From: a virus
Length of the DNA stretch: 55,621 bases
Strand: one strand, 5' to 3'
IMG/VR virus record: IMGVR_UViG_3300028897_000188
Coordinates: 1 to 55,621 of that record
The first letter of the stretch is position 1; each line of letters begins with the position of its first letter. Below are positions 8,001 to 54,139 of this stretch, one piece after another. The position numbers were made by a program, and so were the translations under genes. The notes below the pieces were generated by a model that saw only the letters and a list, made by a program, of their open reading frames with translations, was not told the origin of the DNA and made no database searches.

Positions 8001-8506
8001 CCCTTACCTAGTAAAGAATCAACCTGAGTAGGATATCCTACTGTTCCTCCACCAAAACCGTGATTTTCATTTTGAGTTGAATCTTTAAATTCATCTGCCG
8101 TTCCGTCACTTGACTCCTTTAGATGGAATACATGAGTAAATCCAGAATCCCAAACGGCTTGAGCCGCACTAGTTCCTACAGTACCTACATATTGAGTATT
8201 ATCTGGTTCACTAGAGTCATAATATAAAGTGAAATCTGCTCCGCTGGCTGGAAGATTAGGAATCTTGGTAAACACCCAAGCCCTTTCATTAATATCATCC
8301 CATACATCTACTTCTATATAAAGTTGATTGAGATTTTTATCTTCTATTTTCATCTTTAAAGAAGACGAACCAATCTTAGTGAAGATATCTGTAAGGTCTT
8401 CTGATGTAAGTCCAGATGCAGAAGCAAGAGGAATCATAACAGGGAAATCTGTTAAGTCTATTCCTGCTCCTGAGACATTAAATGTTATGTAATTATTCCA
8501 AGCCAT
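2039..8506 (-). CDS. Giant multidomain tail adhesin with DUF2341/LamG-like modules and polyserine linkers
   Basis: 2155 residues. The N-terminus (about 1-110) looks like a DUF2341 domain, followed by a concanavalin/LamG-like jelly roll (about 150-340). The pair recurs at about 415-820. Polyserine linkers lie near 352-412, 825-862, 905-957, 1485-1579, 1819-1880 and 2015-2037. A large unrecognised block spans 957-1485. Two tandem paralogous modules close the protein; both contain the motif LDISDRTA. DUF2341 and LamG folds commonly bind carbohydrate, so a glycan-binding tail surface protein is likely. The start ATG lacks a clear Shine-Dalgarno site: the preceding 23 nt after the upstream stop are almost all A/T. 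It lies between two other adhesin genes in the late tail operon. Confidence 0.85.
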   Translation of the reverse strand: MAWNNYITFNVSGAGIDLTDFPVMIPLASASGLTSEDLTDIFTKIGSSSLKMKIEDKNLNQLYIEVDVWDDINERAWVFTKIPNLPASGADFTLYYDSSEPDNTQYVGTVGTSAAQAVWDSGFTHVFHLKESSDGTADEFKDSTQNENHGFGGGTVGYPTQVDSLLGKGQRFGSSPDGQYIRTKGLDPDGRDANTVEAFFKTPSGSMPTNNGSIVMNPESVTSSSFNLVNINGTPRFFQYTPTGSGTANGATTLQIDTQYYMVGRWASGGPVEVFLNGILDGQSANVSGVIGRGVADRYGIGNWRVVSGREAQYHTIDEVRISSIERSVNWLKHTNATLRDNIITFTPSGASFSSSSFSSSSSSISSSSLSSSSSSSSSSSSSSSSSSSSSSSSSSQSSSSSSTSSSSSSGIPWKCTIPFSVSGSKIECDSASFSFPLKISNNSGSTGADLTHIFTELGEKRYKLKVTDEIGSQLNVEITRWIPSAGEATLYIGPSIVISGGTRYFTLHFGNDQEDNFDYVGSLGIPVSGDGRDFSNIGIVASAGMNVWDESYACVMHMEEIHDDPNALINRTYQSTKYSNLEGSAVNMDFGPSGCGGFISPGVRYQDNWCVSAGQGWQFTGKGLYMTGVLSTSVYGWPNSPGYVGIGSSDGMDYLGHTQVSVEAWVRCEARRPIGQNTSYIAKVNHAGIPSESSVFLGLSNGGVQGGIYSGGSWYRATGEQIPLVPSGANGKEWTYVAMAWGSGGRVRSYQNRAENLLITEGQLRSGTIGRRGDGGLIGQYGYLAGRPFKGYIDEVRYHRDYKGSGFLKTSMLSMRDDFVTYDAVSCSSSSSSSSSSLSSSSSSYSYSSSSSSFSFSQSSSSESSSSSSESRACPQYYGRECKAWPCNINDTTNEIMIADWCISSSSSSQSGSSSSESSSSSSYSSSSSSSSSSSSNSLSSSSSSSSGSSSSSSSSESSFAFEGLYFQMGGTNPDNPYAFPYGTVHNDNDRGDPVFVWNPATDDYAKILNAKGTDYVDFPCRRRDIAHWLDQTYMIFRWAFTPGGSAVLKGMYGDTEGDGEEYGYYTGNPWSNVEGTNRYEVDVLATGTIDGEEQVDVNTEWESQYRFGSPGDPPGFYYVSSDWVQSYSRDINTPYASKGLYPDEYFIGDPEYLEHASLFRVKSFSETIWQYKFWGNYAAIDRDPQPDCTKYDYTYSAVATFNLDLELVTPIGSEFLTGHSSGYFGGRGLYYEYSNCPGDAYARTLDPGAATWRTIGNIFDQPLQKGLGWARAATGRFKNFMHQVYVVIASRADTGYNFSGRAPNQFITYRHSDYILGYPAPSIMWSTCQYYYGSGWGLISNSVASCETVLGIPYPEYWEPFEKASPDHDWISGFWVAGTYYFTPSATSQVEDFTTAGWLEPDIEVIAGANSTGAIQASAVDPHTQSRSTNLENAIRAMIDLYYDSDETDIPTTIEPYLPLPFWRAPRENISLQSMYRKRISPESYSSSSASSSSTSSSSESSSSSSSSVSSSSSSRSSSSESSSSRSSSSRSSESWKSSVSYLSSSSSSSASESSSSESMSSSSSSISSSSSSFSSNCFTEDFVGVSGAQPTPFNIRENENDWNLSYLDGTPSGGLVVDYVNVSGGHAFNLNNRYAYRSEIPGVSGTIFDVVLDWSTSYQYPANADYTWISFLCISESPTDQLDNFKNIFGVYLAPGAGGSKYVRYYLRRQLGDVGGAFPDSWLSYPSYDSGNYSGKIRLRSEQIGPNSLNVRFYYKTDGVHDSWVQMYTQSYSTSASHYLHFGFGMGNVTDSVGTRGHISKIKGLSVIEAVNVSCQSSSSSSRSSSSSSISSISSSSSSLSFSSSSLSSSSSSVSSSSSSSSSSLSSSSSTSSSSSSQIPGACDNYFDDTFWSPHDIQYGQWDAVNQEWDKTTSRTIWLDADAGWKEGYTSNFIVVTLDNILPVSAGYGNFILVLNAANGSVNTGYQTVSAGQQMVLDISDRTADFNYISVQRQFGEDEAYSITNIRFCESSYSSSSTSQSSSSFSGSSSSSSSSGVGCDTYFEYGTYWDLVFSPPLLGSWDAVNQEWDSSGTGSLWLAPSAGTTWNVGYTNNYLKLTLNNITGGSGSFNISLTGGNGAKNFLGVAISDGVPISLDISDRTAPYSQLVLSVL

Positions 8507-8527: not shown

Positions 8528-11500
8528 TTAGATTACATCTATCTCAAATGTCATTTCTGTTGCTCTACTCCAACGGATTCTCAACGCTCCTGAAGTTCCA
8601 TAGAAAGGAAGTACATTTGGATCAGGATTAGCATTAGTAAAGTCATATGTTTCTCTAAACATAAATTTAGCATATCCAGTTGGTAGAGACTGTCCTATAA
8701 TTGATTGTAAGTATGATATTCCAGCCCCTCCAAAATCAAAAGTAAACGCAGCGGCCCCATCTGGAAACTGACCAGAATTATCTATTTGAATTCCTGTTCC
8801 TGCATCCCAATCTGCTATCGTAGGTGGAACGGCATGATTTGATATCTCCATATACATCCCCTCTGTATATGGTGGACTTATTGAATCATCAGGGAAAAAG
8901 GCAACCGATGCACCAACAATTATCATCCTTGCGGCTACTACCGTACTAGCTGACGGTATACCAGATACATTATAAGTAACAACCGATCTCTCTAGTTCCC
9001 AATCAGAAGAATCTCTGCCTATATATCCTGTAATATATGTAGGAGAAAGAAATATACCTCCTGCTGTGGGAGAGTTCCTAACACCATCCCACGTTGCCGC
9101 ACTAAAACCTAGCGCTGCGCTTGATCCTGCTATTGGTGCGCTAAATGAAAATGTTGTAGCACTAGCAGAAGAACTTGACTCTGACGAAGAGCTTAGTGAA
9201 CTGGAACTTGAATAACTGGAGCTTGACGAATTAGAAGAACTAGATGAGGAGCTACTAAAACAGCTTAAACAAGCAGAAGTAGGTGGAGTCAAAAATCTAA
9301 AATTATAAAAAGCCATATCCAAGTCTGTTCCATTTGGATGCAATGTTGATGCTCTAAGCATTACTCTTATATCTTCTCCACTTGTGCTTCCAGCCCATTC
9401 CCATCTTAATTGTGAAAAATCAAAATGGTAGAAGTATAAAGTATTACCAGTTCCAGGCTTCACAATTCTGAATCTACCATTGACAGGATAGTTATTCGGA
9501 GAAGTTGAGCCATAATCAAAAACAGTTTCAGATCCACCAAGAGTTGTTCTTACTTGAAGTTGATTTCTATTTGTACCGACATTATACGTATTCCTTACTG
9601 TAATAGGATTATCATTAGCGGCTGGTAAAACAGGATGCAAACCAAATTCAAAATATGCTCCTGCTCCAACTACAGAGTAAGTTTCAATTGTCCAATCAAT
9701 AGATATATCGAAAGGACAATTATTAGGAATAGTCCATTCACTTTGAATTTCAGAGCTACGTGTTACTCCTGCTACGGCTCCGAAATTATCATATCTGTAG
9801 AAGTTAAGCTGACCAAATCCACTAGGAGCCGTAGGTGGTGGTGAATCAAAGTATGTAGCTGGTGAACCTCCCATATAATTATTTTGATTAAGAATTACTC
9901 CCCAACGATGATAGTCTGGATCGCCACCTGATATATCTAGTAAATCTTCCGCACAATTAGAACTGTAAGAGCTTGAGATACTTGAGGAGCTTGAGCTTGA
10001 ACTTGAAGTAGAGCTTGAACTTGACGATGGACAAGGAATCCCACCAGACACATTTACACAAAGGTCTGTAATTGTAGATATATGTCCTCTTACTGAATAG
10101 TTTCCTACATCTGTACCGACATTTCCAGCGGCAAATCCAAAATGTATATACAATGGATTCAATGATACTCCAAGATTATGTAATTCAGGAACACCAACAA
10201 AACCAGAGGGCCAAAATTCTACCCAATCATCGTCATGTCCTAGAAGAGGAGAATTATAATTTTTGTAGTAAAAATGTTCTTCTAATTGAAAATTCCCACC
10301 ACCAAGATCACGTATAATTCCTTTAAGTCTCAACCATCCTTGCCATGCCGCTCCTAAAGTACTAGGCATATAACAAGCAAATACTTCTCCATATCTATCT
10401 GGTGCTACTGGATGTTTTCTCCTATATTGTAAAACTTGTTGTGTATATGCTCCTCCACAATTATCACTAGGAGGAGGATATCCATCAAGACCGAGTTGTG
10501 CATAGAAAGAATTATGTACTCCCCACATTGATTTATGATTAGTAAAGTCATATGGACTTTCAGATAGAGCTAAGAAAGCCACCCAACTAAACGAACCACT
10601 ATTAGGTGAATATTCATAAGTGTTAATCCATTTAAGAGATACATCTACTATATTTCCATCAACTATAGGTATTGCTGTATGATAACTCCATCTATCCCAA
10701 AGTTGTCCATGACCAGCAAATTTCAAATAGGGCCATAAATAATTAGCATGAGGAATTTGTTCTTCTACTGGAAGAATCCCTCCATATTGATCCCATTCAT
10801 TTATTCTTACTTTCGTATAGTCAAGAACATCTCCCTGTAGAACTCCGTTTATAGTTCCAGCAGATGGTACATATCCAGAAGGATATAATATCCCTGCACT
10901 TGGCCCTGCACTAGTTATATACCCACCAGATGGATAATTAGAAAAAGTAAAACAGTTAGTAGTCTCACATCCTAAAGCCAAATTATAGGAAGATGAAGAA
11001 GATTTACTACTACTTGAAACTGATATTGAGCTACTTGAGGAAGATAAACTACTTGAGGAAGATAAACTACTTGAGGAACTTGAAGAACTTGAATATGAAG
11101 AGCTTGACTGACTACTACTACTAGAACTTGACGAAGATGGATGTAACCAGAAATTGACTAGCGGCCCAACTCCACTTGGATATCCAACCAATCCACCAGA
11201 CGGAGTATCTTCAAAGTCATGGAATATAGTCCAAATACTATCTGGACACCCACATTCTCTATGTAGATAAGTCAACGCCCATGCTTCTCCAGCCAATGTA
11301 GCCCATCCATTTACTGGTTGAGCAAATTTCAATTCAATGGTATCGTCATCTATAATACATACATTCTTAGGTTCTATACGTCTTGCTAATGCCGTAGGAT
11401 TTTTACCACAACCAGCACCTTCTAGTGATTCCCATGCCTGAATTACTACATATCTTCCAAGACCATGATTAATAGTCCATGTCTTTGTTGAAGTTTTCTG

Positions 11501-13582
11501 TATATGCAGATAGGTAGCAATACCAGCCGATGGAGTAGGCCCACCAGCCGACAGGAACCTACTTCCTGTAAAGAACGTATTAAAATATCCATTTGAGTCC
11601 AGAGGATATAGAGGAACAGAAGTAGCAATTCGCTCTTCCTTTGCAGGAGGAGCTAAAAATTCGTGATACAGAACATGCTTGTTAACTGGTCTTACATATT
11701 CCCAGTTTCGTATTAACTCATCTGCTAAAAATTTATTAATGATAAAATCGTCACCAGCAAATAACTCATTAAAAGGCTCAACATCAATCAGCGGCTCCGT
11801 ATTCAGATCCAATTCTACTATGTAATGAGGAGTTATTACTGGATGTCCAGTAGGCCCGACTCCTGTAGTCAAACGTGAAAAATCAACATGCTGTCTGAAA
11901 ACAGTTCCGAAGAACTGACCATCCAATCCGTTAGTGAATGAGTTCATTGCATGGAGTACAGTATAGTCAGGACACGCTTGTAATGTATGAGTAATTATCT
12001 CCGTTAGTTTCTCTTCTCTTCTCTTACCGTCATAAATATAAACTTCTAAAGTAGGAGAACCAGCGGAAGGACATGTCCTGTCTACTCCTATTCTATACCG
12101 TTTGCTGACTTCATAATCAGTCTTGGTTCCTATAGTAGAGTAAATAGTTGCTCCGTATTTCTCATATACAGCAAATCGTCTTTGTGTTCCTACCTTTTCC
12201 ATTGCCACACCAATCCAGTCATTAGGTGTGGTTCCGAATCCATAGACATCTTGACTGACACCATAGAAGATAAAGCTACAGTCTGTAACTGTTTTCGGAG
12301 ACATGGCAACTCCAGCACAATGCTCAAAGTCTCCAGAAAAACTTTGACCAGATAGAGTCAATGTCCTAGTCAAAGTATCAACGGTATCATATGCGGAGAT
12401 TCCTATAGAATATGTTCTGATATCAGTTACAAAAGAATTTAATTCTCTTGGATCATAACAAAGGAAACTTTCAGGTGGCCCACAATCCCATATTTCAGCG
12501 GTACAATTACCACTTGGAGCTTCCGTAGCGTGAACTGGATAGAAAGCAGGATTGAATTGAGAATACCATAAATCTCCTCCTCCACCAGATGGAAACTGAC
12601 CGTAGAATTCCAGCCAATTGTAGTCATTGATAGGATATATTTCTGGCCCAAAATAACTTCTTACTCCAGTAGGAAGTCCAGGGTGAAAGCCTGGAAATCT
12701 GTCATAACTCGCTTCATTCTTTAAAGTGATTCCATCCAGTTCAAATAATTCAGGCTGACACCACTCATCCCACCGTTCATAGACATTCATTACATTTTCA
12801 GAATTTGATAGATACAGTTTGTAGATAATATACAGAGCATTGTAAGCACCAATGCGCTTTAAGAAGTAAATCAGATTTTCTACCCATTCTCGGATATTCA
12901 ATTCTGACATCTCTTCTGCTATTTCTATTCCGTATATCTGAGCAATGTACCCTAACCACTTCAAGTCAATTTCTCTAGCGTCCATTAAAGACCATAGAGT
13001 TTTCAACATTGTATAAGGTTCATGGTGAACTTGATCAAAATAGACTTGTAACCATTCCTTTACATTGGTGGTCTGGTTATGTGCTGGTAAGGCTCTTAAT
13101 GCGTAGTCTTTAAGACCTTCAAATTCTATAGCATAGGTGTTTGAAGATCTACTTACGGGCCAAAGCTTTCCGAAGAAAGCAAATGTTCTTTTTTGATTTA
13201 CATAATTTCTATAGGCTTCATTTTCAGATCTAGCTAGCCAAGCATGGAAGAAGCTATCCTTACGGAAGTACATCTCATTGCCTACACCAACGGCACTTAA
13301 AGCTTCTGTCTCTGTATCTGTACGATACTTCTTGAAGTCATCATAGACCCCACGATACTCCATCTTGAAGCGATTACCATCTATTTCTTTAATGAGAAAC
13401 TTATGACCCACAAATCCTTTGGTAGCATCATTCTCATAGAGAACAGTAAACGCTCCTCCATCCGTCCATATACTTTGCCTTGGGCCAGCTAAGTAAGACA
13501 GTTGAGTACCAGTTTGTCTACTTCCTAAAATATCAAAATATCTTTGAAGTAATTGGTAATTGGGATCTGAAAACTTACCCAT
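8528..13582 (-). CDS. Tail protein I-like N-terminus fused to polyserine-linked adhesin
   Basis: 1684 residues. Residues about 120-260 resemble the P2 gpI / TIGR02242 baseplate-tail protein family, including the stretch around LKWLGYIAQIYGIEI. Near 640-760 are segments seen in phage tail proteins, including a W-x-I-N-H-x-L-G motif. Three polyserine linkers (about 814-866, 1184-1207, 1442-1472) separate beta-rich modules; the module after the first linker resembles a module in the 2155-residue neighbour. The N-terminus probably docks to the baseplate and the rest projects as an adhesin. P2 gpI is only about 180 residues, so this is a large fusion. A purine-rich AGGAGA lies upstream of the ATG. 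Tail location is well supported; ligand unknown. Confidence 0.8.
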   Translation of the reverse strand: MGKFSDPNYQLLQRYFDILGSRQTGTQLSYLAGPRQSIWTDGGAFTVLYENDATKGFVGHKFLIKEIDGNRFKMEYRGVYDDFKKYRTDTETEALSAVGVGNEMYFRKDSFFHAWLARSENEAYRNYVNQKRTFAFFGKLWPVSRSSNTYAIEFEGLKDYALRALPAHNQTTNVKEWLQVYFDQVHHEPYTMLKTLWSLMDAREIDLKWLGYIAQIYGIEIAEEMSELNIREWVENLIYFLKRIGAYNALYIIYKLYLSNSENVMNVYERWDEWCQPELFELDGITLKNEASYDRFPGFHPGLPTGVRSYFGPEIYPINDYNWLEFYGQFPSGGGGDLWYSQFNPAFYPVHATEAPSGNCTAEIWDCGPPESFLCYDPRELNSFVTDIRTYSIGISAYDTVDTLTRTLTLSGQSFSGDFEHCAGVAMSPKTVTDCSFIFYGVSQDVYGFGTTPNDWIGVAMEKVGTQRRFAVYEKYGATIYSTIGTKTDYEVSKRYRIGVDRTCPSAGSPTLEVYIYDGKRREEKLTEIITHTLQACPDYTVLHAMNSFTNGLDGQFFGTVFRQHVDFSRLTTGVGPTGHPVITPHYIVELDLNTEPLIDVEPFNELFAGDDFIINKFLADELIRNWEYVRPVNKHVLYHEFLAPPAKEERIATSVPLYPLDSNGYFNTFFTGSRFLSAGGPTPSAGIATYLHIQKTSTKTWTINHGLGRYVVIQAWESLEGAGCGKNPTALARRIEPKNVCIIDDDTIELKFAQPVNGWATLAGEAWALTYLHRECGCPDSIWTIFHDFEDTPSGGLVGYPSGVGPLVNFWLHPSSSSSSSSSQSSSSYSSSSSSSSSLSSSSSLSSSSSSISVSSSSKSSSSSYNLALGCETTNCFTFSNYPSGGYITSAGPSAGILYPSGYVPSAGTINGVLQGDVLDYTKVRINEWDQYGGILPVEEQIPHANYLWPYLKFAGHGQLWDRWSYHTAIPIVDGNIVDVSLKWINTYEYSPNSGSFSWVAFLALSESPYDFTNHKSMWGVHNSFYAQLGLDGYPPPSDNCGGAYTQQVLQYRRKHPVAPDRYGEVFACYMPSTLGAAWQGWLRLKGIIRDLGGGNFQLEEHFYYKNYNSPLLGHDDDWVEFWPSGFVGVPELHNLGVSLNPLYIHFGFAAGNVGTDVGNYSVRGHISTITDLCVNVSGGIPCPSSSSSSTSSSSSSSSSISSSYSSNCAEDLLDISGGDPDYHRWGVILNQNNYMGGSPATYFDSPPPTAPSGFGQLNFYRYDNFGAVAGVTRSSEIQSEWTIPNNCPFDISIDWTIETYSVVGAGAYFEFGLHPVLPAANDNPITVRNTYNVGTNRNQLQVRTTLGGSETVFDYGSTSPNNYPVNGRFRIVKPGTGNTLYFYHFDFSQLRWEWAGSTSGEDIRVMLRASTLHPNGTDLDMAFYNFRFLTPPTSACLSCFSSSSSSSSNSSSSSYSSSSSLSSSSESSSSASATTFSFSAPIAGSSAALGFSAATWDGVRNSPTAGGIFLSPTYITGYIGRDSSDWELERSVVTYNVSGIPSASTVVAARMIIVGASVAFFPDDSISPPYTEGMYMEISNHAVPPTIADWDAGTGIQIDNSGQFPDGAAAFTFDFGGAGISYLQSIIGQSLPTGYAKFMFRETYDFTNANPDPNVLPFYGTSGALRIRWSRATEMTFEIDVI

Positions 13583-27767: not shown

Positions 27768-28934
27768 TCAACGATTGTTGAAAATTATCTTAGGCTCTAC
27801 TACAGCTTCTAAAGGAAAAAGCTCATCCTTCATTGGTAGTAAAACTTTAAACATGTATTCGATTTCTTCTTCAATCGTCCTTGTAGGTTTATAATTCAGA
27901 TTTCTAAGTTTGTCAGTAACATAATGGTAGTAATGTTCTCCTGTATATTCTACCCTTGGTGTCTCTATGTTACTCTCTTGAACTTCGATACCAAAGTTTT
28001 TAGAAACCTTGCCTACCATGTTTGCAACATCATTCATGGAGTGCCATTCGCTTAACTGATTCCACACTTGAACACTCCCTGCCATAGCTGGATTGTTTAC
28101 TGCTATCATTAAGGCTTGAACGCTATCATTGAGACTTAAAAATCCTCTTTGATGGTTTCCTTCTCCGTATATAGTCAAAGGAATTCCCAATACAGCTTGC
28201 ATGACAAACCTGTTAATAACCGTTCCTCCAGCTTCGTCTGTATCCAATCTGCTATAGATTTTATGCTTATCAATCTCATCCGTATAGATACCAAACACAA
28301 TAGATTGCTGGACATCCGTACACCTTAGATCCCAAGCTCTTGCAAGGTAATCAATCAAATAGGTAGAAGCAGTTTTACTACAATGGTAGATGCTCCCTGG
28401 TCTACGTGGATAAATCATCTCATTGCTTTTTCTACCCTTATGCTCGACTGTGAAATATCCCTCTTCAATATCAATATTGGAATAATGGTCATACTCTCCT
28501 GTAGTACCAATAGTGATATAATGACACTCTGGAGTATATTTCTTTATAGTCCATAAAAGATTATTGGTTCCAAGATAATTATTTGATAACACCATTTCAG
28601 CATTTTTTCTCGACTTCATGCTGTATGGGCCAGAAGGATTATGAGCAAGATTAATTACTACATCTGGCTTAAAATCCTCAAACATGTTCTTTAAAATTTC
28701 TGGTTCACACTCAATGTCTATTTCCTCAAAACAAAATGTACCATCGTACATATCATTAAACAGAATAGCTTTATCGTTCATGTCTAAAAGAGGAGTAGCA
28801 GACATGCTACCCATTCCCTCTATCCATTCTCTTCTCCAGAAGTTATCGAAACCGATTACTTCTCTACCTTCTGCTAACAATCTTTGAGTCAAAGCATTTC
28901 CGATATAACCATCACAACCGAATACGAAAATCAT
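27768..28934 (-). CDS. UDP-sulfoquinovose synthase (SQD1)-like NAD-dependent epimerase
   Basis: 388 residues. The Rossmann start GCDGYIGNAL is followed by the SDR tyrosine motif at IYHCSKTAST. The sequence then follows SQD1 closely: RCTDVQQSIVFGIYTDE, RLDTDEAGGTVINRFVMQA, IYGEGNHQRGFLSLNDSVQ and PRVEYTGEHYYH. SQD1 adds sulfite to UDP-glucose to give UDP-sulfoquinovose. The adjacent glycosyltransferase could use the product. A GGAGG site precedes the ATG. A related branched-sugar epimerase is possible. Confidence 0.8.
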   Translation of the reverse strand: MIFVFGCDGYIGNALTQRLLAEGREVIGFDNFWRREWIEGMGSMSATPLLDMNDKAILFNDMYDGTFCFEEIDIECEPEILKNMFEDFKPDVVINLAHNPSGPYSMKSRKNAEMVLSNNYLGTNNLLWTIKKYTPECHYITIGTTGEYDHYSNIDIEEGYFTVEHKGRKSNEMIYPRRPGSIYHCSKTASTYLIDYLARAWDLRCTDVQQSIVFGIYTDEIDKHKIYSRLDTDEAGGTVINRFVMQAVLGIPLTIYGEGNHQRGFLSLNDSVQALMIAVNNPAMAGSVQVWNQLSEWHSMNDVANMVGKVSKNFGIEVQESNIETPRVEYTGEHYYHYVTDKLRNLNYKPTRTIEEEIEYMFKVLLPMKDELFPLEAVVEPKIIFNNR

Positions 28935-30150: not shown

Positions 30151-30728
30151 TTTCTTTTCACCAAAAGCCCCACGCTTCCAGCACTTATATCTGGTAGCTC
30201 TGGAAGACTATAAATCATTTGATCAAAAAGCTCAAGAGGAAATGACTCTGACTTCATTGAGAATAACTTAACATAACATGAGTCCTCTTTTTTAGCAAGA
30301 GAAAATTTTAAAAGACATTCGTTTAGATCCTTCACAAATCCTTTGTTATGAAGATAGTCTATGATAATATAATCAGTATCATCTTCTCTTAAAATAAAAA
30401 CTCCTTCTGGTTCAAATACATGATTTTCTCTAGTTCTCTTCAAAGCCTTGATAAGCTTATCTCTCTTGTAATTTCCCTCAATGGTTGCTACTGTAAGGTA
30501 TGGATTAATTGCTTCATGTTTGATATCATATCGAATCAACCAAGACTTAATGTAGTCAAACACTCGCTTGAGATGCATCTTGCTAAGTCCGAAACCTACA
30601 GAAGTTTCTACTATATAAGGTTTATCATGTCTAGCAACCTTTTCGTAAAAATCCCTTTCAGTAGTTCCTAAAGGAGTATGAACCAATCTAGTCCTAACAT
30701 CTTCTTGCACAAAATCTTTAAACTTCAT
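30147..30728 (-). CDS. Hypothetical protein with capsid-targeting-like N-terminus
   Basis: 193 residues starting MKFKDFVQEDVRTR, fitting the M-K-F-x-x-[YF]-[LIV]-x-E motif. Two weakly repeated alpha/beta halves (around PYLTVATIEG and SCYVKLFSM) recall 2H phosphoesterases, but the catalytic H-x-T histidines are missing. It overlaps the GT-B-like gene by 11 nt. It could be a virion-packaged protein encoded away from the main cargo block. Confidence 0.6.
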   Translation of the reverse strand: MKFKDFVQEDVRTRLVHTPLGTTERDFYEKVARHDKPYIVETSVGFGLSKMHLKRVFDYIKSWLIRYDIKHEAINPYLTVATIEGNYKRDKLIKALKRTRENHVFEPEGVFILREDDTDYIIIDYLHNKGFVKDLNECLLKFSLAKKEDSCYVKLFSMKSESFPLELFDQMIYSLPELPDISAGSVGLLVKRK

Positions 30729-31548
30729 TTTTTAGAAAATCCTCCATTCCTCTGATTATAATATTTGGATCATCTGACTCTGGAATAACTACACACTTTT
30801 CATTTCCAAAATTATAGATCCCTCCGTATCTGTACTGTCCTGGATTTTCTCCCCAACTAAAAACCGCTTTCTGCTGGAGATTAGCTAACCCAGTCCAATA
30901 GGACGCTGGACAAATAACCGCTTTTGCTAAAGTTATATATTGTACAAGATACTTCCATCCATTCTCATAGTAATCAACTTGGTTAAGAATCACATTGTCT
31001 TTTGAAAACCAAGTATCAGTACTTCCCACTACAATAGCATTATACCTCTTTTTTAACCATTTGTAAACATACGCAAGCTTTTCTATTTTTTCTGTCTTGG
31101 CTGGAATGAATATTACTTTCTTTTGATGTCTTCTTGGTATCTTGATATTGACTTTAGGAATTTCATCGAAAAGCTTGTTATATATGGAATACGGAGGAGT
31201 GGTCTTGGAATAGGATAGATGGTGAATTTCTATATCTCTCTTATTGCACTTCTCTCTTTTTATAATTTCTTCTTTGAATCTTTTTAAGATTAATCTAAAA
31301 TCGCTTTTGTGGATTTTATTATGTGTATAGCCTTGCTGATTCTTCTCATCCCTAGAGTATTGCTGGTATACGTGAAGTATGTTTTCGGCTGGAACAAAGT
31401 CCTCATAGAGAAAGGCTCTGTTCAAATGGGTAGACAAATATATCTTATCCCACTCAACCGCTTCCGCTAACCAACGTGCATAAGGACGAAAAGTAAACAA
31501 CTCTTCTTCCCATGATCCTATGTATGGGCCGATAGCTAATATCTTCAT
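30718..31548 (-). CDS. GT-B-like glycosyltransferase (candidate)
   Basis: 276 residues. The C-terminal part (TLAKAVICPASYWTGLANLQQKAVFSWGE) resembles the donor-binding end of GT-B enzymes such as the GT9 heptosyltransferases (ADA-x-I-x-P-x-S-G-x-T-x-L-A). The N-terminus starts like a nucleotide-binding strand (MKILAIGPYIGSW). If it is heptosyltransferase-like, ADP-heptose from the two heptose genes in this window would be a fitting donor, but that is inference. Confidence 0.5.
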   Translation of the reverse strand: MKILAIGPYIGSWEEELFTFRPYARWLAEAVEWDKIYLSTHLNRAFLYEDFVPAENILHVYQQYSRDEKNQQGYTHNKIHKSDFRLILKRFKEEIIKREKCNKRDIEIHHLSYSKTTPPYSIYNKLFDEIPKVNIKIPRRHQKKVIFIPAKTEKIEKLAYVYKWLKKRYNAIVVGSTDTWFSKDNVILNQVDYYENGWKYLVQYITLAKAVICPASYWTGLANLQQKAVFSWGENPGQYRYGGIYNFGNEKCVVIPESDDPNIIIRGMEDFLKNEV

Positions 31549-39750: not shown

Positions 39751-40809
39751 CTAAAAATGATAGCTACCACCATCAGTTAGAGGATTTCTTTTATCTTTTT
39801 CCGCTAAATCCCAAGAGACATAATTTGATTCTCGACCACGACCAAAACGGATCTTCTCTTTGAACTCCTCTTTCAACTTTTTTTCGTCAAGTTCTACCTC
39901 ATCCATATTTTTGATCTTTGCGGTGACTCGCAGAAAAGCTCCACAAGGAGTTTTAACTCTGACATGTCCAGCGATTCCATCTTTAGCAATCAGAAGACTT
40001 ACATTGTGATTGCTGTTAATGAAATTTTCATCATGCTGTGAGAAACCAGCTTTGTCTCCCTTTGCTCCACCCATTTCATGGTGAGAGTGCATGACTCCTA
40101 CAACGCTAACCTTGTTATACTCATCTGTTAGAACTTTACTGACAAGAGCAGAATTTGCGTTCTGGTTAGGTAACAAGAGATCCATGACTTCTACTTCATT
40201 TTCGGATTTCCACCTACCCACAAGATATGCCAGCCATTCTTGGCTACCAGCCCATTTCATAAACAGCAAAGCTTTCTTTCTGGCAACGGAAGACATATAG
40301 ACAACCGCTTTATCAGGAGCTTTACTACATGCCGTAACACAATCAAGTTCTTCGGTGACATCCCAAAACCCATCTTCGTCTTCATGGATTCCATCCTTGT
40401 CTTCTCCATTGCCACCATGAGCGGCAGGAGCGGCAGGAGTAGTAGGATCGTGATAGACAATTGTACCACCTTGAGGATTCGTGTCAAACTCATCCGATTG
40501 TAATTCCATTTCTCTAACTAGAAGAATGGCATCAACCAGATCTTTATGTTGTTCACTAACCCTACGTACATGTCTCCTAGAACCCTGCCGTAGCTGTACT
40601 TTACAAGCATTAGCAATTGATTTGTGACTATACTCCGCTTCTGGATCTGTCAGATAATTAATGATCAGTCCTTGTAACGGAGTCAAGTTATTCTCATCAA
40701 TTGCTTCGATAACCTTTGGATGTAAACTTAGCTTTTCCATAATTTTTTCCTTTCTATCCTTTCTTAATCTTTTTTGATAATTGGCTCTATGTATTCTTGG
40801 ATCTATCAT
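39751..40809 (-). CDS. JAMM/MPN+ metalloprotease (ubiquitin-like deconjugase, candidate)
   Basis: 352 residues. The C-terminal half is a JAB domain: Glu201 in EWLAYLVG, then HSHHEMG (His241, His243) and FSQHD (Ser267, Asp270) give the zinc-binding JAMM set, with about eight extra residues inserted between the His and Ser-Asp parts. The N-terminal 90 residues look helix-turn-helix-like; a low-complexity Pro/Gly/Asp linker follows. It should process or remove the Ubl encoded in the same operon. Start overlaps the E1-like stop (ATGA); an ATG at 40740 with AAGGA is an alternative. Confidence 0.85.
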   Translation of the reverse strand: MIDPRIHRANYQKRLRKDRKEKIMEKLSLHPKVIEAIDENNLTPLQGLIINYLTDPEAEYSHKSIANACKVQLRQGSRRHVRRVSEQHKDLVDAILLVREMELQSDEFDTNPQGGTIVYHDPTTPAAPAAHGGNGEDKDGIHEDEDGFWDVTEELDCVTACSKAPDKAVVYMSSVARKKALLFMKWAGSQEWLAYLVGRWKSENEVEVMDLLLPNQNANSALVSKVLTDEYNKVSVVGVMHSHHEMGGAKGDKAGFSQHDENFINSNHNVSLLIAKDGIAGHVRVKTPCGAFLRVTAKIKNMDEVELDEKKLKEEFKEKIRFGRGRESNYVSWDLAEKDKRNPLTDGGSYHF

Positions 40810-41390
40810 CTATCAAACCTGAAAAGTTTCTCCACGCTGGAGATTACTTCTTTTTTCTCATACTTCATAACCTTTGCTACTGCTAAAGCCGCTACAATCA
40901 TAGCAGGAACAGCCCATGAAGGAACAATGGTATATCCTTCTCCGTCTTCTCCAAACTCCGCAACGGAATTATGGATACCAAAATTTTCTCCATCATAACC
41001 AGCTTTGAAATATTTTGCTCCCATCTTTCTAGCAATCTCTTGGTTCTCCGTTTGAGCTTTCGCCTTATCGGTACAGTCAATAACCCAATCGGTTTTATCT
41101 CCCATTTCATTAAAAGGAAAGGGATAGGAATAGACAATACATTCTTCTCTGATTCCTTGAATTGCTATCTTTGTGATATCGGCTTTGTTCTTCCCAATAT
41201 ACCTGTAGGGAATATCCAAACGGTTTAGGTTATGCTCTTCCAATGTATCAGGATCATAAAGAACAATTTTACCAATACCAGACATTGCTAAAATCTTAGC
41301 TACCCAATAGCCTATTCCACCACACCCCACAACTGTAACTGTTTGCGACTGATTGAGTTTAAGCTTTTCCTGTCTCTGATAAAGACCCAT
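40806..41390 (-). CDS. E1-like ThiF/MoeB-family adenylyltransferase
   Basis: 194 residues, a minimal E1 adenylation domain. It has GCGGIG (22-27), the acidic D46, NLNR (54-57) and the CTD motif (106-108), all ATP/Mg-binding features of ThiF/E1 proteins. It lacks the CxxC zinc pairs and an obvious catalytic cysteine beyond the Rossmann core, so it may only adenylate the Ubl C-terminus or pass it directly to the E2-like partner. A GGGAG site precedes it. Confidence 0.87.
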   Translation of the reverse strand: MGLYQRQEKLKLNQSQTVTVVGCGGIGYWVAKILAMSGIGKIVLYDPDTLEEHNLNRLDIPYRYIGKNKADITKIAIQGIREECIVYSYPFPFNEMGDKTDWVIDCTDKAKAQTENQEIARKMGAKYFKAGYDGENFGIHNSVAEFGEDGEGYTIVPSWAVPAMIVAALAVAKVMKYEKKEVISSVEKLFRFDR

Positions 41391-41406
41391 TGTTTTCTCC
41401 CTTCAT

Positions 41407-42285
41407 TTAACCATCTAAACCAGTATCCCAAACATCTTCATCTTCTGTTTTCTTTTTATTTCCGTCAAGAACTTTACCAAAATCTTTAGTTATTGTAGTC
41501 AAATGATCTCTAACAGTTTCTATTTGAGGTAATCCAGTAGGATTGCTTGTAGCCACGCTACCTTCATTGATAGTCTCAAGTACTGCTAGCGCATCTTTGG
41601 CGCAAAAAACGATATCATCTGGAGTACTCCAGCTTGAAGGTTTTTGCCATTGACCCCAACAATCAGAATCATTACTCATTTTATGATAATGCCAGAACGG
41701 ACTCATATTGGCATCTGGATTGTGAGTAGTTATTTCTACGATTTGACTACCCTTGGTTCTGATCTTTATAATGATATCTTTAACCAGGCGATTCCGCAAT
41801 GCTCTATCAATTGATTTTGGTTTTTTGGCTCTTGATTTTTTGAAAAATTTGGCTTGATATTTTCCACGAAATAACCATAACAATTCATCATGCACTCCCT
41901 CATTCTTTACTACCATGAGTCCTTTCTTTGCATGAGTGTATGTTATATCTGGCATCATTGCGGCATTGTTATAACGCTCTTGAAGCTGTCTCTCTTTGCG
42001 CTCCAATTCGTTTTGCTTTTGCTGATGCATGGTGAGAAGTTGATTGATCTTAGTATTGATCTTGTCTCTAATCCTTTGTTGTTGGGCGTTTAGCTTTTCC
42101 CTAAACTCTCCACGAATTTTCTCTTCTAGATCCTCATCTTCAATTACTTCCATATCAGAGAATCGAAAAGTTTTACCAGCAAAATTTAGAGACAGTCCAC
42201 TTGCCTTGATTTCCTCTAAAGTTATGGACTCAAGTACTTCAATCATTTCAACTTGACGTTCATTGACTTCCTCTTCAAAAGACAT
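41407..42285 (-). CDS. E2-like ubiquitin-conjugating protein (candidate) with coiled coil
   Basis: About 292 residues from the chosen ATG (a GTG three codons earlier is possible). Residues about 45-110 form a charged coiled coil. The C-terminal domain has HNPDANMSPF, then HYHKMSNDSDCWG, placing a cysteine (Cys209) after His/Pro-rich motifs much as in prokaryotic E2 families (H-P-N ... C-x-G). It is encoded between the Ubl and E1 genes. Fold assignment is by motif and operon context; a structure prediction would settle it. Confidence 0.6.
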   Translation of the reverse strand: MSFEEEVNERQVEMIEVLESITLEEIKASGLSLNFAGKTFRFSDMEVIEDEDLEEKIRGEFREKLNAQQQRIRDKINTKINQLLTMHQQKQNELERKERQLQERYNNAAMMPDITYTHAKKGLMVVKNEGVHDELLWLFRGKYQAKFFKKSRAKKPKSIDRALRNRLVKDIIIKIRTKGSQIVEITTHNPDANMSPFWHYHKMSNDSDCWGQWQKPSSWSTPDDIVFCAKDALAVLETINEGSVATSNPTGLPQIETVRDHLTTITKDFGKVLDGNKKKTEDEDVWDTGLDG

Positions 42286-42299
42286 GGCACACACTTATC

Positions 42300-42427
42300 C
42301 TTTCGTCACAAATTAAAGTAGGGATAGAATAGCCGATCTTCTATTTTAGAGGATAAGTTGACGGTGTTGGTGGATTCTCTTACTGAATAGAGACACAACT
42401 ATCCTATCCCAAAACGAAACGAAAGCT
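42300..42427 (-). promoter_or_regulatory. Structured spacer between Ubl and E2-like genes
   Basis: The 130-nt gap has no ORF with a clear start. GGGATAG near one end can pair with CTATCCC near the other (about 90 nt apart). It may tune E2 expression relative to Ubl. Structure is by eye only. Confidence 0.35.
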
Positions 42428-42709
42428 TCAACCAGCTTCGTCATAAGGTCGGAGTTCGACTCGGTGATCTGGCTCAAACTCTGTAGGAGCCGTTGATTTA
42501 CGGACTTCTACACCATTCACGTAACAACGGAACTTACCGAAACCAGCATCCAGAGCCGCATTTTTAACGGTCTGTAAAAAAGGTGCTCCTGTTTCTACAG
42601 AAATGTAAGAACCATTAATAAGGATGCTAGCTGTTCCCTCTGGTGCTTCCAGAGCGGTAGTAGCTTCTCTGTCTTCTCCTGTACTTTGATCAAAAATGTT
42701 GTCTTCCAT
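42428..42709 (-). CDS. Ubiquitin-like beta-grasp modifier (Ubl)
   Basis: 93 residues: about 25 flexible N-terminal residues, then a beta-grasp-like sequence (SILINGSYISVETGAPFLQTVKNAALDAG ... CYVNGVEVRKS ... HRVELRPYDEAG). It ends directly in glycine, so no processing would be needed before activation. It is the first gene of the operon with E2-, E1- and JAMM-like genes and has a near-perfect promoter and GGAGG site. Codon use is GC-richer than its neighbours, consistent with high expression. Confidence 0.78.
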   Translation of the reverse strand: MEDNIFDQSTGEDREATTALEAPEGTASILINGSYISVETGAPFLQTVKNAALDAGFGKFRCYVNGVEVRKSTAPTEFEPDHRVELRPYDEAG

Positions 42710-45531: not shown

Positions 45532-46443
45532 TCAATCTTCTTCTACATACTCATCAAAGATATCTTCAAAAACATCTTTAGGTACTACAGCCGTTCCTTT
45601 TTGACTAACAACATAAGCGGCACATTTATTAGCTATCTTTGCTGATCTTAACACACTCAATCCTCTTTGTAAACATATTGCCATGATTGCAGTAACGGTA
45701 TCTCCAGCACCAATTACTTCGCTATCGAAAACTTTTTCTCCCTTGATATGTTCCGCAACATCCAATGTTCCATTAGAAGTCCTTTCCATTAGAGTCATAC
45801 CCCTGTCTCCTTTAGTAATAAGGATGTTTTGAGGTAAAGCTGGATGTCTCCATCTCATTTGATGGTATTCGGATTCATTAGGAGTGACTAGTAAAACTCC
45901 TTCTGGATACAAAGCCCAGTTTTCAGGTTTCGGATCAATTATGATTTTATCCTTATAAGCTCCAATCCAATCCATGAATTTTCTACTCACCACTCCTTTA
46001 GCATAATCGGAAACAATTATCATATCATACTCTTCTTCCAGCATTTGATGAGTCAAAGCAATATGAGTGGTCTTCTCATGGTAAAAATCTATTTCTGTTT
46101 TATCTTCAATGTCAATTCTTATCAATTGCTGATTGTCTGCAAATATACGTTCCTTTATAGTAGTAGGATTGTTATTAGGCATGTACCAAAATTTAATTCC
46201 ATCTTCTTTTAAAAGTTTCTGTACTGATTCTCCAGCTTCATCTTGACCGAAAGCACCAGCTATATCTACAGTACCTTTACCAGTTATAGCAGAAATGTTT
46301 CTGGCACAATTAGCGGCTCCTCCCAAAACATCATATTGAAACTTTACATCTACTACTGGAACTGGAGCTTCTGGAGAAATCCTATTTGCTTTACCCACTA
46401 CATATCTGTCAATCATTAAATCACCAATGACTAGAAATTTCAT
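45532..46443 (-). CDS. D-glycero-beta-D-manno-heptose-7-phosphate kinase (HldE domain I / RfaE1-like)
   Basis: About 303 residues from ATG 46443 with GGAGG 5 nt upstream. It starts with FLVIGDLMIDRYVVGKANRI, then EAPVPVV and GGAANCARN. The ribokinase signature near 240 is VIGAGDTVTA. All match RfaE1/HldE-N, which makes heptose-1,7-bisphosphate. The HldE second domain is missing here but an equivalent is encoded on the plus strand at 49149. A hairpin leader may control translation. Confidence 0.85.
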   Translation of the reverse strand: MKFLVIGDLMIDRYVVGKANRISPEAPVPVVDVKFQYDVLGGAANCARNISAITGKGTVDIAGAFGQDEAGESVQKLLKEDGIKFWYMPNNNPTTIKERIFADNQQLIRIDIEDKTEIDFYHEKTTHIALTHQMLEEEYDMIIVSDYAKGVVSRKFMDWIGAYKDKIIIDPKPENWALYPEGVLLVTPNESEYHQMRWRHPALPQNILITKGDRGMTLMERTSNGTLDVAEHIKGEKVFDSEVIGAGDTVTAIMAICLQRGLSVLRSAKIANKCAAYVVSQKGTAVVPKDVFEDIFDEYVEED

Positions 46444-46458
46444 AAGTACCTCCTTGGA

Positions 46459-46522
46459 GCGGAGCACTTACAGGAAAAATTAAAAGGAGAAACAAAAACA
46501 AAAAAACCTGTAAGCACTCCGC
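46459..46522 (-). promoter_or_regulatory. Long leader hairpin with possible pseudoknot on the heptose kinase ribosome site
   Basis: GCGGAG-TG-CTTACAGG pairs with CCTGTAAG-TG-CTCCGC around a 32-nt T-rich loop, just after the tRNA-Gly and before the heptose kinase. The loop contains CTCCTT, which can pair with the AAGGAG of the Shine-Dalgarno. Could sequester translation start or mark tRNA processing. Confidence 0.5.
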
Positions 46523-48901: not shown

Positions 48902-49152
48902 TGGAATTAACGATTGAAAGACTTCAAGAAGCATATAAAAAAATAAACGGAGTAGAATATGACTTAAACAAAAGATGGGAAGAAGGGATTTCTCACCATC
49001 CTAAAAGTGAAGAGTTGTTTAAAAAGATTCAAGAAGTAGATTTTATTTGGAATGACGATCATTTTTGCTGGAAGTATGGTGGAGATGGAGACAACGGAGA
49101 AATCTTTATGTATGTTTTGGATGTCATATTTGAAGAAGAGGATAAGAAATGA
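48901..49152 (+). CDS. Hypothetical protein
   Basis: 83 residues, acidic, with a helix near the start and WNDDHFCWKYGGDGDNGEIFMY. No family recognised. It overlaps neighbours at TAATG and ATGA and is in the nucleotide/heptose gene run. Confidence 0.6.
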   Translation: MELTIERLQEAYKKINGVEYDLNKRWEEGISHHPKSEELFKKIQEVDFIWNDDHFCWKYGGDGDNGEIFMYVLDVIFEEEDKK

Positions 49153-49943
49153 TTTACTGTTTTGATATAGATGGAACCATATGTACAAAAGCTAGTCATT
49201 ATAAATTTGCTAAACCAATACAACCAATGATAGATAGGATAAACAAGCTGTATGAGAACGGTAATACAATTATTCTGTCTACTGCCAGAGGGAAAGGAAG
49301 CGGAGTGGATTATGAGGAGCTAACCAGACAACAGATTTTTAAATGGAAAGTAAAACATAATGAGATACTTTTCGATAAACCTTCCGCTGACTTCTACGTA
49401 GATGATAAAGCCGTGTTGCCTGAAACACTCTATCTAAAGGAGTACCGTCAAGTATTTACAAACGGATGTTTCGATATAATTCACGCTGGACACATCAAAC
49501 TTCTAAGGGAAGCATCAGAGCTTGGTATTGTAACAGTAGGAGTTAATTCAGATGACTCCGTTAGAAGGATCAAGAGAGAACCAGTTAACAAGCTGGAGGA
49601 TAGGATGGAAGTTCTATCTTCTATAAGATACGTGGATAGAGTTATACCGTTTACTCAGGATACTCCATTTGATTTAGTTATGCAATTACTACCAGATGTG
49701 ATTGTTAAAGGAGCCGATTGGAAAGGTAAGGATGTTAATGAATTTAAGTTTGTAGAGTCTTACGGAGGGAAGGTTCATTTTGTAGAATTGCTTACTGGTT
49801 ATTCAAGTAGCAAAATAATGTCTAGTTGGGAAGATCGCTATACGGAGTGTTTATGTGATTGTGAAAAAGAGATTTGTGGTATTTGTAGCCAGCCGTATTG
49901 TGATCATGTGAATTGTAAATGTAGAGAATGGAACATGAGATAA
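49149..49943 (+). CDS. HAD phosphatase fused to RfaE2/HldE-C-like cytidylyltransferase
   Basis: 264 residues. Residues 1-100 form a HAD domain (CFDIDGT, LSTARG). Residues about 105-235 have FTNGCFDIIHAGH, GVNSDDSVRRIKR and a GYSSSKIM end, matching HldE-C, which makes ADP-heptose. A Cys-rich tail (CLCDCEKEICGICS...) may bind zinc. With the kinase at 45532 it could give the last three ADP-heptose steps. The HAD part resembles capsule phosphatases rather than GmhB, so its step is inferred. Confidence 0.8.
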   Translation: MIYCFDIDGTICTKASHYKFAKPIQPMIDRINKLYENGNTIILSTARGKGSGVDYEELTRQQIFKWKVKHNEILFDKPSADFYVDDKAVLPETLYLKEYRQVFTNGCFDIIHAGHIKLLREASELGIVTVGVNSDDSVRRIKREPVNKLEDRMEVLSSIRYVDRVIPFTQDTPFDLVMQLLPDVIVKGADWKGKDVNEFKFVESYGGKVHFVELLTGYSSSKIMSSWEDRYTECLCDCEKEICGICSQPYCDHVNCKCREWNMR

Positions 49944-52157: not shown

Positions 52158-52358
52158 ATGGCAGATGACATCATAAATCATTGTGAATATAAAAATATGA
52201 TGCCATATTGCGCTAAAAAGGAGGAACAAGACGAACAAGAGAAATGTTCCTATTATGAAAAAGCTAGTCATTTCAATAGGTGCATGTATCTAAAATTTGA
52301 TGAATACTGTGATAATGTAAAAGCCAAACTTAAAGTATTAGAAGGAGAAAAGAAATGA
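52158..52358 (+). CDS. Small cysteine-rich protein
   Basis: 66 residues with five cysteines (HCEYKNMMPYC, KCSYY, RCMY, YC) and acidic helices. AGGAG precedes it and it overlaps the ExbB-like start. Unknown role. Confidence 0.6.
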   Translation: MADDIINHCEYKNMMPYCAKKEEQDEQEKCSYYEKASHFNRCMYLKFDEYCDNVKAKLKVLEGEKK

Positions 52359-52876
52359 AATCCAAAGACAGTATTCTAATAAGATGGTGGATATTAGCGT
52401 CATTGGTGTTATTAGGATTTGCTAGTTTGTTTCCTACTGGCATAATCTATAAAGTGAATGACGCTGATATTACAAAAGTCAGTTTTCTAATATTCGGAAT
52501 ATTCTTTTACTACTCTGCAAAGATAGGAACCTACCTTTGGAAGATAAATTCAAAACCAAAACTATCAAAATATGAAGTAGAAACATATCGGCATAAAACC
52601 GAAACAGGATGGTTTGCGGCAGATGCTCTTTTCATCTTAGGATTTTTCGGAACAGTTGTGGGCATCAGCTATGGAACAGAGGGATTCAAAGAATTTACTG
52701 ATTCAGCAAAAGTAGTAACTACAATGGGAACAGGAATAGGAACAGCTTTATACACAACTATTGCTGGTTTGGTTAGTGGTTTAATTCTCAAGTGGCAGTT
52801 ATTTATGATATGCCATTATCTAGATGGACTTGAGAATGAATGTAGTCATTGTAAATGTAATGCGGAGAAAAAATGA
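52355..52876 (+). CDS. MotA/TolQ/ExbB-like proton-channel protein
   Basis: 173 residues with four hydrophobic segments (about 10-30, 42-60, 88-110, 128-150). The last two carry ILGFFGTVVGISYG and GTGIGTALYTTIAGLVSGL, the core pattern of TolQ/ExbB/MotA helices lining an ion path. The ExbD-like gene overlaps its end, as in exbBD. Likely an ion-driven membrane complex. Confidence 0.75.
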   Translation: MKSKDSILIRWWILASLVLLGFASLFPTGIIYKVNDADITKVSFLIFGIFFYYSAKIGTYLWKINSKPKLSKYEVETYRHKTETGWFAADALFILGFFGTVVGISYGTEGFKEFTDSAKVVTTMGTGIGTALYTTIAGLVSGLILKWQLFMICHYLDGLENECSHCKCNAEKK

Positions 52877-53520
52877 GATCCTTTAGATCATATAATGCCA
52901 ATATGTCATTGCAAGACATTGTAATGATTCTTCTGATATCTTTTCTGTTTATTATTGTCTTTATGAAAGTTGAGAAAAAAGACGATGCTAAAATAAAAAC
53001 AAAAGCGGAGTTTGTTATCAACGTGGAATGGGATGAAAAATCTGACGATGATGTTGATACTTGGTTAAGAGATCCACAAGGGAATTTGGTGTTTTATAAA
53101 GATAAAGAAGTTGGTATAATGCATATTGACAGAGATGATAGAGGAATGGTAAATGATTATGTATATGTACGGAGTGAAAGAGTTTATACTAAAACAAACC
53201 AGGAATTAACTACAATCAGAGGATTCATAGAGGGAGAATGGATTCTCAATCTTCATTATTACAGAAGAGGACAACCAATAAAACCAGTAAACGTACATGT
53301 TACAATAACCAAGCTAAATCCAGAAGCAAAGATAATCTTAAATAAGAAATTGGTATTGGATAACTATTGGCAAGAAGTAACAATAGCAAGATTTGAAATG
53401 ACTAGTAGCGGAAAGATTTTAACTATAGAGGAAGACCTTCCATATGAAATGGTACAAAGTCAAATAGGAGATGGGAACTCACAAGTTTCAGTTCAAAATT
53501 ATAGAGGAGATAGACCATGA
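52873..53520 (+). CDS. ExbD/TolR-like protein with beta-sandwich domain
   Basis: 215 residues. One membrane helix (about 15-34) begins with SLQDIVMILLISFLFI, placing Asp15 where ExbD/TolR/MotB have the essential membrane aspartate. The outer part has DVDTWLRDPQGNLVFY and DRDDRG, then paired strands, like DUF2135-type or similar beta sandwiches, not the usual ExbD fold. It may couple proton flow to an envelope target. Confidence 0.65.
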   Translation: MRSFRSYNANMSLQDIVMILLISFLFIIVFMKVEKKDDAKIKTKAEFVINVEWDEKSDDDVDTWLRDPQGNLVFYKDKEVGIMHIDRDDRGMVNDYVYVRSERVYTKTNQELTTIRGFIEGEWILNLHYYRRGQPIKPVNVHVTITKLNPEAKIILNKKLVLDNYWQEVTIARFEMTSSGKILTIEEDLPYEMVQSQIGDGNSQVSVQNYRGDRP

Positions 53521-54071
53521 TATATGGATTCATTGGATTAGTTTTAACATATGTTATTTTAACAACCATGTTTTTATGGATGTTAAGAAAGACTGACACG
53601 GCACAATGGAAAAAGCTTTTGGTTATTCCATTAACTCTGTGGTGGGCTATTGCGCTATACTACACTCCTCTAGGGTTTATGGGATACCCTGTCTCTAAAG
53701 ACATACCAGACAAGGCTATAGTGATAAGCGTCAAAATAGTTGAGCCTACCAATAATAATAAAGGTGGTATGTATTTTTGGGTAATAGATGTTAACAAAGC
53801 AAAACCTCTTCCAGTAGACCCACGTAAAGCCTTTATAATACTGAATCAGCAAGAACCAAGGGCTTATAAACTCCCATATGATAAGGGTTTACATAAAGAC
53901 CTCACAAAGAAAAAAAAGAAACAAAAAGAAGAGAACGGTGTTTTAATATGGAGCAGGAATAGAAAGAAAAAACAACTTGGAGAAGCTACTAACCAAGAGA
54001 AGCTTATAAAAGGTAAATTCAAAGTTGTAAACCCAGTATCTTTATTGCCTTCCAAAACAAATCCTCAATAA
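53517..54071 (+). CDS. Third membrane protein of the ExbB/ExbD-like operon
   Basis: 184 residues. Two hydrophobic segments (about 1-22 and 32-50), then a soluble domain (SVKIVEPTNNNKGGMYFWVID) and a basic C-terminal stretch rich in KKKKK and RNRKKK. Overlaps the ExbD-like stop (ATGA). No family recognised; likely a partner or substrate of the channel pair. Confidence 0.55.
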   Translation: MIYGFIGLVLTYVILTTMFLWMLRKTDTAQWKKLLVIPLTLWWAIALYYTPLGFMGYPVSKDIPDKAIVISVKIVEPTNNNKGGMYFWVIDVNKAKPLPVDPRKAFIILNQQEPRAYKLPYDKGLHKDLTKKKKKQKEENGVLIWSRNRKKKQLGEATNQEKLIKGKFKVVNPVSLLPSKTNPQ

Positions 54072-54110: not shown

Positions 54111-54139
54111 TTGACATTCTATCTTATATAAGGTAGAAT
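54111..54139 (+). promoter_or_regulatory. Strong early promoter
   Basis: TTGACA, 17-nt spacer, TAGAAT (54134-54139). Confidence 0.82.

Follow-up and report, generated by a model that had tools for sequence, protein, structure and literature searches.

What do three overlapping genes for membrane proteins, the first of which resembles TolQ and ExbB, do in a phage? The question arises at positions 52355 to 54071 of a viral record of 55,621 bases (the whole stretch is referred to as the window), which carries genes for a contractile-tail baseplate wedge and hub and for a T4-type clamp loader, primase and exonuclease, and which therefore derives from a contractile-tailed phage distantly related to T4. 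The first-pass annotation had described the locus as an ExbB/ExbD-like ion-channel pair in a phage, with a TolQ/ExbB-type protein, a one-helix protein with the membrane aspartate of ExbD and a different outer domain, and a third membrane protein, and had proposed that it could disturb the proton gradient, exclude other phages or drive an envelope process. The three genes are named Q, D and T below. No description of a Q-D-T cassette was found in the open-licence PMC literature.

The operon and the putative pore subunit Q

The three open reading frames are located on the plus strand in successive frames, Q at 52355-52876 (173 amino acids), D at 52873-53520 (215 amino acids) and T at 53517-54071 (184 amino acids). 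Two 4-base ATGA overlaps, at 52873-52876 and 53517-53520, confirm that they belong to one overlapping operon. Q is preceded by a Cys-rich open reading frame of 66 amino acids (52158-52358, +) that has no family match; it shares a further ATGA overlap with the start of Q, to which it is thus translationally coupled, and may or may not be part of the Q-D-T system. The sigma-70-like site with the best score in this region (54111-54139, 11 of 12 matches) lies behind T, so that T is probably the last gene of the transcription unit, although promoter-like sites overall are no more frequent here than in shuffles.

By its sequence, Q is a member of the known MotA/TolQ/ExbB family, as had been supposed. 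The window protein matches the Pfam family MotA_ExbB (PF01618) with an E-value of 2.7e-7 and 30.8 bits, above the cut-off of 22.9, and the same family is matched by 69 of 75 Q proteins at an E-value of 0.01 or better. TMEM128, the third Pfam match of Q, was below its own cut-off and was rejected. A profile of the 75 Q proteins compared to the PDB recovers ZorA (6.4e-8), MotA (1e-7), TolQ (4e-5) and ExbB (6e-4), and this profile aligns through the pore helices with TolQ (24.5 bits) and ExbB (21.3 bits) of E. coli. The alignment places Thr100 of Q (codon 52652-52654, +) on ExbB Thr148 and TolQ Thr145, and Thr135 (codon 52757-52759, +) on ExbB Thr181 and TolQ Thr178. The first position is a threonine in 57 and an asparagine in 17 of the 75 Q proteins (one or the other in 74), and the second is a threonine in 72 of them. 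In ExbBD, the residues Thr148 and Thr181 of ExbB and Asp25 of ExbD are named as essential (PMC12905483). Q has four helices, a cytoplasmic loop of only 29 residues and a tail of 20 residues; there is therefore no space for a torque interface of flagellar type or for a tail of Zorya type.

The Asp-bearing subunit D and the third protein T

The first-pass annotation was right on the architecture of D. The AlphaFold2 model, obtained from 86 aligned sequences (mean pLDDT of 84), comprises a single helix followed by a periplasmic beta-sandwich. The transmembrane helix, supported by the model and by topology, spans residues 13 to 33 (52909-52971, +), and Asp15 (codon 52915-52917, +) is near its cytoplasmic end, where it precedes the hydrophobic stretch as in ExbD, TolR and MotB of E. 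coli and occupies the position of ExbD Asp25, TolR Asp23 and MotB Asp32. At least 143 of 149 dereplicated loci have an aspartate at the start of this helix, a residue that is absolutely required in ion-driven motors of 5:2 stoichiometry (PMC12905483). It is replaced by glycine in three viral contigs (L116, L153 and L167), which read FRGY instead of FRD; if D is part of a motor, these variants should not conduct ions in the usual manner.

Outside the membrane, D is not of the ExbD/TolR type, by sequence or by model. None of the 86 D proteins matches the ExbD/TolR family at an E-value of 0.05; ExbD and ZorB are also absent from the list of fold matches, which by itself proves nothing. The head (53005-53442, +) is modelled with a TerD-like fold. 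VIA-align gives Z scores of 12.5 (to 3ibz), 11.6, 10.8 and 9.8 for four TerD-type entries over 137 to 142 aligned residues, against 10.3 for two other chains and at most 6.2 for all the rest. The TerD entries stood out by VIA-align and not by Foldseek alone, since Foldseek returned nothing significant from the PDB for the D model, with unrelated beta proteins at the top of its list; among viral models, it found a "putative tellurium resistant like protein" at 1.5e-3. None of the 86 D proteins has a match to Pfam TerD, and eight have weak matches to DUF2135, the best at 0.0034. The comparison with hhalign to TerD and DUF2135 was not significant, and is weak evidence in either direction as the alignments were small and that of DUF2135 contained some rows in the wrong frame. 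Searches in PHROGs, NCBIfam and Pfam gave no usable result and no curated family match for D. Since the fold match comes with no significant TerD sequence match, we speak of a TerD-like fold and not of the TerD family. Weak single matches from the D and T searches (DUF6715, DUF4131, holins) were dismissed as chance-like.

The alignment of D reveals that W53, D60, D62, R87, D88, D89, G91, E111, R116, G121, E168 and T170 of the head are invariant and that D95 is nearly so. The acidic residues among them (D60, D62, D88, D89, E111 and the near-invariant D95) suggest a putative metal site. TerD and DUF2135 beta-sandwich proteins share the fold of the head and, by eye, Asp-rich loops at comparable places, and, according to the title of PDB entry 2kxt, a TerD protein binds calcium. 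By analogy, the probable ligand of the D head is Ca2+ or a component of the envelope. The TerD proteins compared differ from D in lacking a membrane helix and a motor subunit as partner. The head also occurs in another setting: in Azospirillum halopraeferens, a protein of 430 amino acids (L197:592-1881, +) that adjoins a putative SrfB carries a C-terminal domain matching the D head (E-value of 1.9e-9).

T is a new protein, and it is indeed a membrane protein, with two helices. Model, conservation and topology agree on a membrane hairpin (residues 2-25 and 27-54) and a small C-terminal domain, modelled as alpha/beta (mean pLDDT of 82), and the model has no long periplasmic linker of the TolA kind. 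The loop between the helices is rich in lysine and arginine, so that by the positive-inside rule the C-terminal domain is probably periplasmic. T has no curated family match and no match to TonB or TolA, and Foldseek found nothing significant for it in the PDB; OB-like folds (eIF5A, S23, SSB) gave domain Z scores of 5.5 at most, too weak to be kept. The window T aligns with the T proteins of a second clade of bacterial cassettes, for example through the motif PRAYKLPY.

Conservation, distribution and surroundings of the cassette

Q, D and T are complete, in the same order and on one strand in 138 of the 149 dereplicated loci. This conservation, together with that of the aspartate of the D helix, establishes Q-D-T as a real conserved cassette, far beyond chance. 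In a first set of 170 loci found through D, 159 had the three genes in order on one strand, and Q and D overlap in 136 of 164 loci. The distance matrices of Q, D and T over 108 loci correlate with r values of 0.82 to 0.89, part of which is accounted for by shared descent. In some phages, a homing endonuclease is inserted between the genes of the cassette and the remaining order is kept.

Among isolate phages, the cassette is found in Pootjesviridae and relatives, in phage 16-3 and relatives and in several other Rhizobium phages. One scan of viral contigs yielded 76 with the cassette, some of them 196 to 360 kb long, and a viral scan with the single sequence P0002 returned only a near-identical fragment. 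In bacteria, a scan aimed at one clade recovered 216 cassette loci, and the cassette was present in 16 of 398 sampled Pseudomonadota genomes and in 31 of 274 genomes of one Pseudomonadota class (that of G323). Many Azospirillum genomes have two copies about 24 kb apart. The cassette is thus not phage-specific and also occurs in ordinary chromosomal settings of many Pseudomonadota.

The trees contain two deep clades, in both of which phages and bacteria occur, and at least three switches between phage and bacterium are required by branches with good support. The cassette has been exchanged several times between phages and bacteria. One row counted as bacterial (L250) resembles a 16-3-type prophage by its neighbours. 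The window is placed in the second clade, on a long branch near bacterial rows and one further viral contig. In a first tree, obtained before the second bacterial clade was added, it was grouped with Pootjesviridae-type phages, again on a long branch and set apart; because of this shift, we are unsure of its exact position.

The neighbouring genes were clustered on the sense strand only, a first round having been swamped by antisense open reading frames in GC-rich loci. No constant neighbour was found in the bacterial loci of the first clade. For the second clade, 8 of 30 bacterial loci (L247, L248, L279, L284, L285, L286 and two more) have downstream of T a gene for a small protein, mostly with a lipobox; it is DUF3108-like in one locus and is in none of the viral loci. 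Several loci of this clade are close to genes read as accA, tilS and dnaE, i.e. in ordinary chromosomal surroundings. The cassettes of phages are surrounded by genes for replication, nucleotide metabolism and regulation. A gene for a trypsin-like peptidase precedes Q directly in 28 of 65 viral loci, with its end at most about 270 bases away in nearly all measured cases; it has an apparent export signal, for example in L005, L006, L011, L169 (where it is Pfam Trypsin_2) and other 16-3-type phages. The annotation of phage 16-3 describes such proteases as typically periplasmic, and the peptidase is a possible partner of the motor. No conserved effector-type neighbour was detected in phage or bacterial loci, among neighbours that were clustered and of which some were identified. 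Proteins with a VWA domain are found near some cassettes (L275:4303-5793, -, with an FHA domain in addition, and its relatives; an annotated VWA protein of phage RHph_I1_18, L002:8757-10190, +), and recall the VWA partners of ter operons.

Elsewhere in the window, a ThiF-type E1-like gene (40806-41390, -; PF00899, 2.8e-23) adjoins an open reading frame with a JAB-like motif HSHHEMGG (39751-40809, -), and a small open reading frame (42428-42709, -) may encode a ubiquitin-like beta-grasp protein. The region 39751-42709 (-) is thus a possible ubiquitin-like conjugation set of the phage. There are also a PfkB/RfaE-like kinase (45532-46467, -), a fusion of HAD and cytidylyltransferase-like domains (49149-49943, +; PF01467), a sugar epimerase-like and a glycosyltransferase-like open reading frame (27768-28934, - and 30718-31548, -). 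The phage may make a sugar of the ADP-heptose type, which would suit changes of the envelope or surface. Positions 2039-8506 (-) and 8528-13582 (-) encode two very long proteins that look structural and contain numerous poly-serine linkers.

A candidate ion-driven motor and its possible roles

By analogy with the characterised systems, Q and D are likely to assemble in the inner membrane into a motor of the MotA/TolQ/ExbB kind that is driven by ions. In motors of the 5:2 pattern, five subunits surround two helices and ions are transferred through the aspartate (PMC12905483; PMC11890865). Accordingly arranged, five Q subunits would surround two D helices, and protons (or Na+) would travel by way of Asp15 of D and the threonines of Q, causing the Q ring to turn relative to D. 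Because Q has almost no cytoplasmic part, the work would be delivered in the periplasm, through the TerD-like head of D and through T. The position of T, which follows Q and D as TolA follows TolQ and TolR, suggests that it acts as a force-transducing partner against the Q ring, in the place of TonB or TolA.

The closest parallels are thus TolQ-TolR-TolA and ExbB-ExbD-TonB. Q is homologous to TolQ and ExbB, the pair of pore threonines and the aspartate of the D helix are kept, and the gene order (Q, a single-helix Asp protein, a third inner-membrane protein) is that of tolQ-tolR-tolA. However, the long cytoplasmic helices of TolQ and ExbB are missing from Q, a TerD-like head replaces the ExbD/TolR domain, T consists of a hairpin and a small domain without a long linker, and the cassette has neither TolB/Pal nor TonB-dependent receptors as neighbours. 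Q-D-T most likely works like TolQRA or ExbBD-TonB, yet would be a separate family. With MotA-MotB, whose MotA chains are matched by the Q profile, the cassette shares the four helices and the aspartate at the start of the B-subunit helix, but not the torque-generating cytoplasmic domain, the OmpA-like head or the flagellar context.

Should Q and D instead pass protons uncoupled, the phage would lower the proton motive force, with an effect on the timing of lysis or a block of DNA entry by other phages. Superinfection exclusion through membrane depolarisation is an established idea, and the whole ion path is kept in Q-D. A leak channel is nevertheless unlikely in our judgement, since the head of D and T are retained alongside the pore, and the cassette also persists next to housekeeping genes on bacterial chromosomes, a setting in which a leak would do damage. 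The earlier proposal that the proton gradient is disturbed by mere dissipation is, for the same reasons (a conserved T, a conserved periplasmic head and a bacterial chromosomal home), a poor fit.

A phage-borne anti-phage motor of the Zorya kind, which would sense the envelope damage done by a second phage and trigger an effector, would agree with ZorA being the closest PDB match of the Q profile, with the PADLOC ZorA models that match many Q proteins and with an Asp subunit that bears a periplasmic domain in both systems; Zorya requires peptidoglycan sensing as well as ion flow (PMC11890865). These PADLOC matches, however, cover the pore region only, the 173 residues of Q leave out the long ZorA tail, no peptidoglycan-binding domain of ZorB type is among the fold matches of D, and neither a nuclease nor another effector gene, such as those of the ZorC/D/E type, is a constant neighbour. 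We hold such a defence motor to be improbable. It is very improbable that Q-D serves as an auxiliary energiser which feeds the TonB or TolA of the host, so that uptake or outer-membrane constriction continues during infection. Q does resemble TolQ and ExbB, and one phage study counts an ExbB gene among possible auxiliary genes (PMC11361711), but D, not being ExbD/TolR outside the membrane, is without the parts that meet TonB or TolA and peptidoglycan, and the co-travel of T with Q-D suggests that the cassette brings its own partner.

For a motor formed by Q and D with T, an expression early or in the middle of infection would be expected, because the phage copies sit among replication and nucleotide genes. 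The motor would then modify or reinforce the envelope of the host cell, and might in this way keep competing phages out; this envelope role is suggested by the early or middle gene setting and by the periplasmic-type protease. From the same neighbourhood, the exclusion of competitors is a possible role in infection that we put forward with more doubt than confidence, and the upkeep or remodelling of the envelope is another, held with just the same reserve. For jumbo phages, it has been proposed that ter genes help them to compete against superinfecting phages (PMC7824862), so that exclusion is a reasonable candidate role.

Few biological machines use a flow of ions to perform mechanical work in the envelope, and Q-D-T would add a family to them. 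The cassette is present in a few per cent of the sampled Pseudomonadota species and in phages that range from 16-3-like siphoviruses to very large ones, and the isolate Rhizobium phage 16-3 and Azospirillum brasilense are workable model systems. Our widest reading, which falls somewhat short of an even chance, is that Q-D-T may represent a further functional class of 5:2 motor beside the flagellar, Ton/Tol/gliding and Zorya classes, with a TerD-like Ca2+-binding head, common in Pseudomonadota and used by several unrelated phage groups to control the envelope against rivals. The ter genes have an old, unexplained phenotype of phage inhibition, and the TerD-like head of D may connect this phenotype with the energetics of the envelope. 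With Q-D-T, viruses would possess a membrane machine that is driven by ions.
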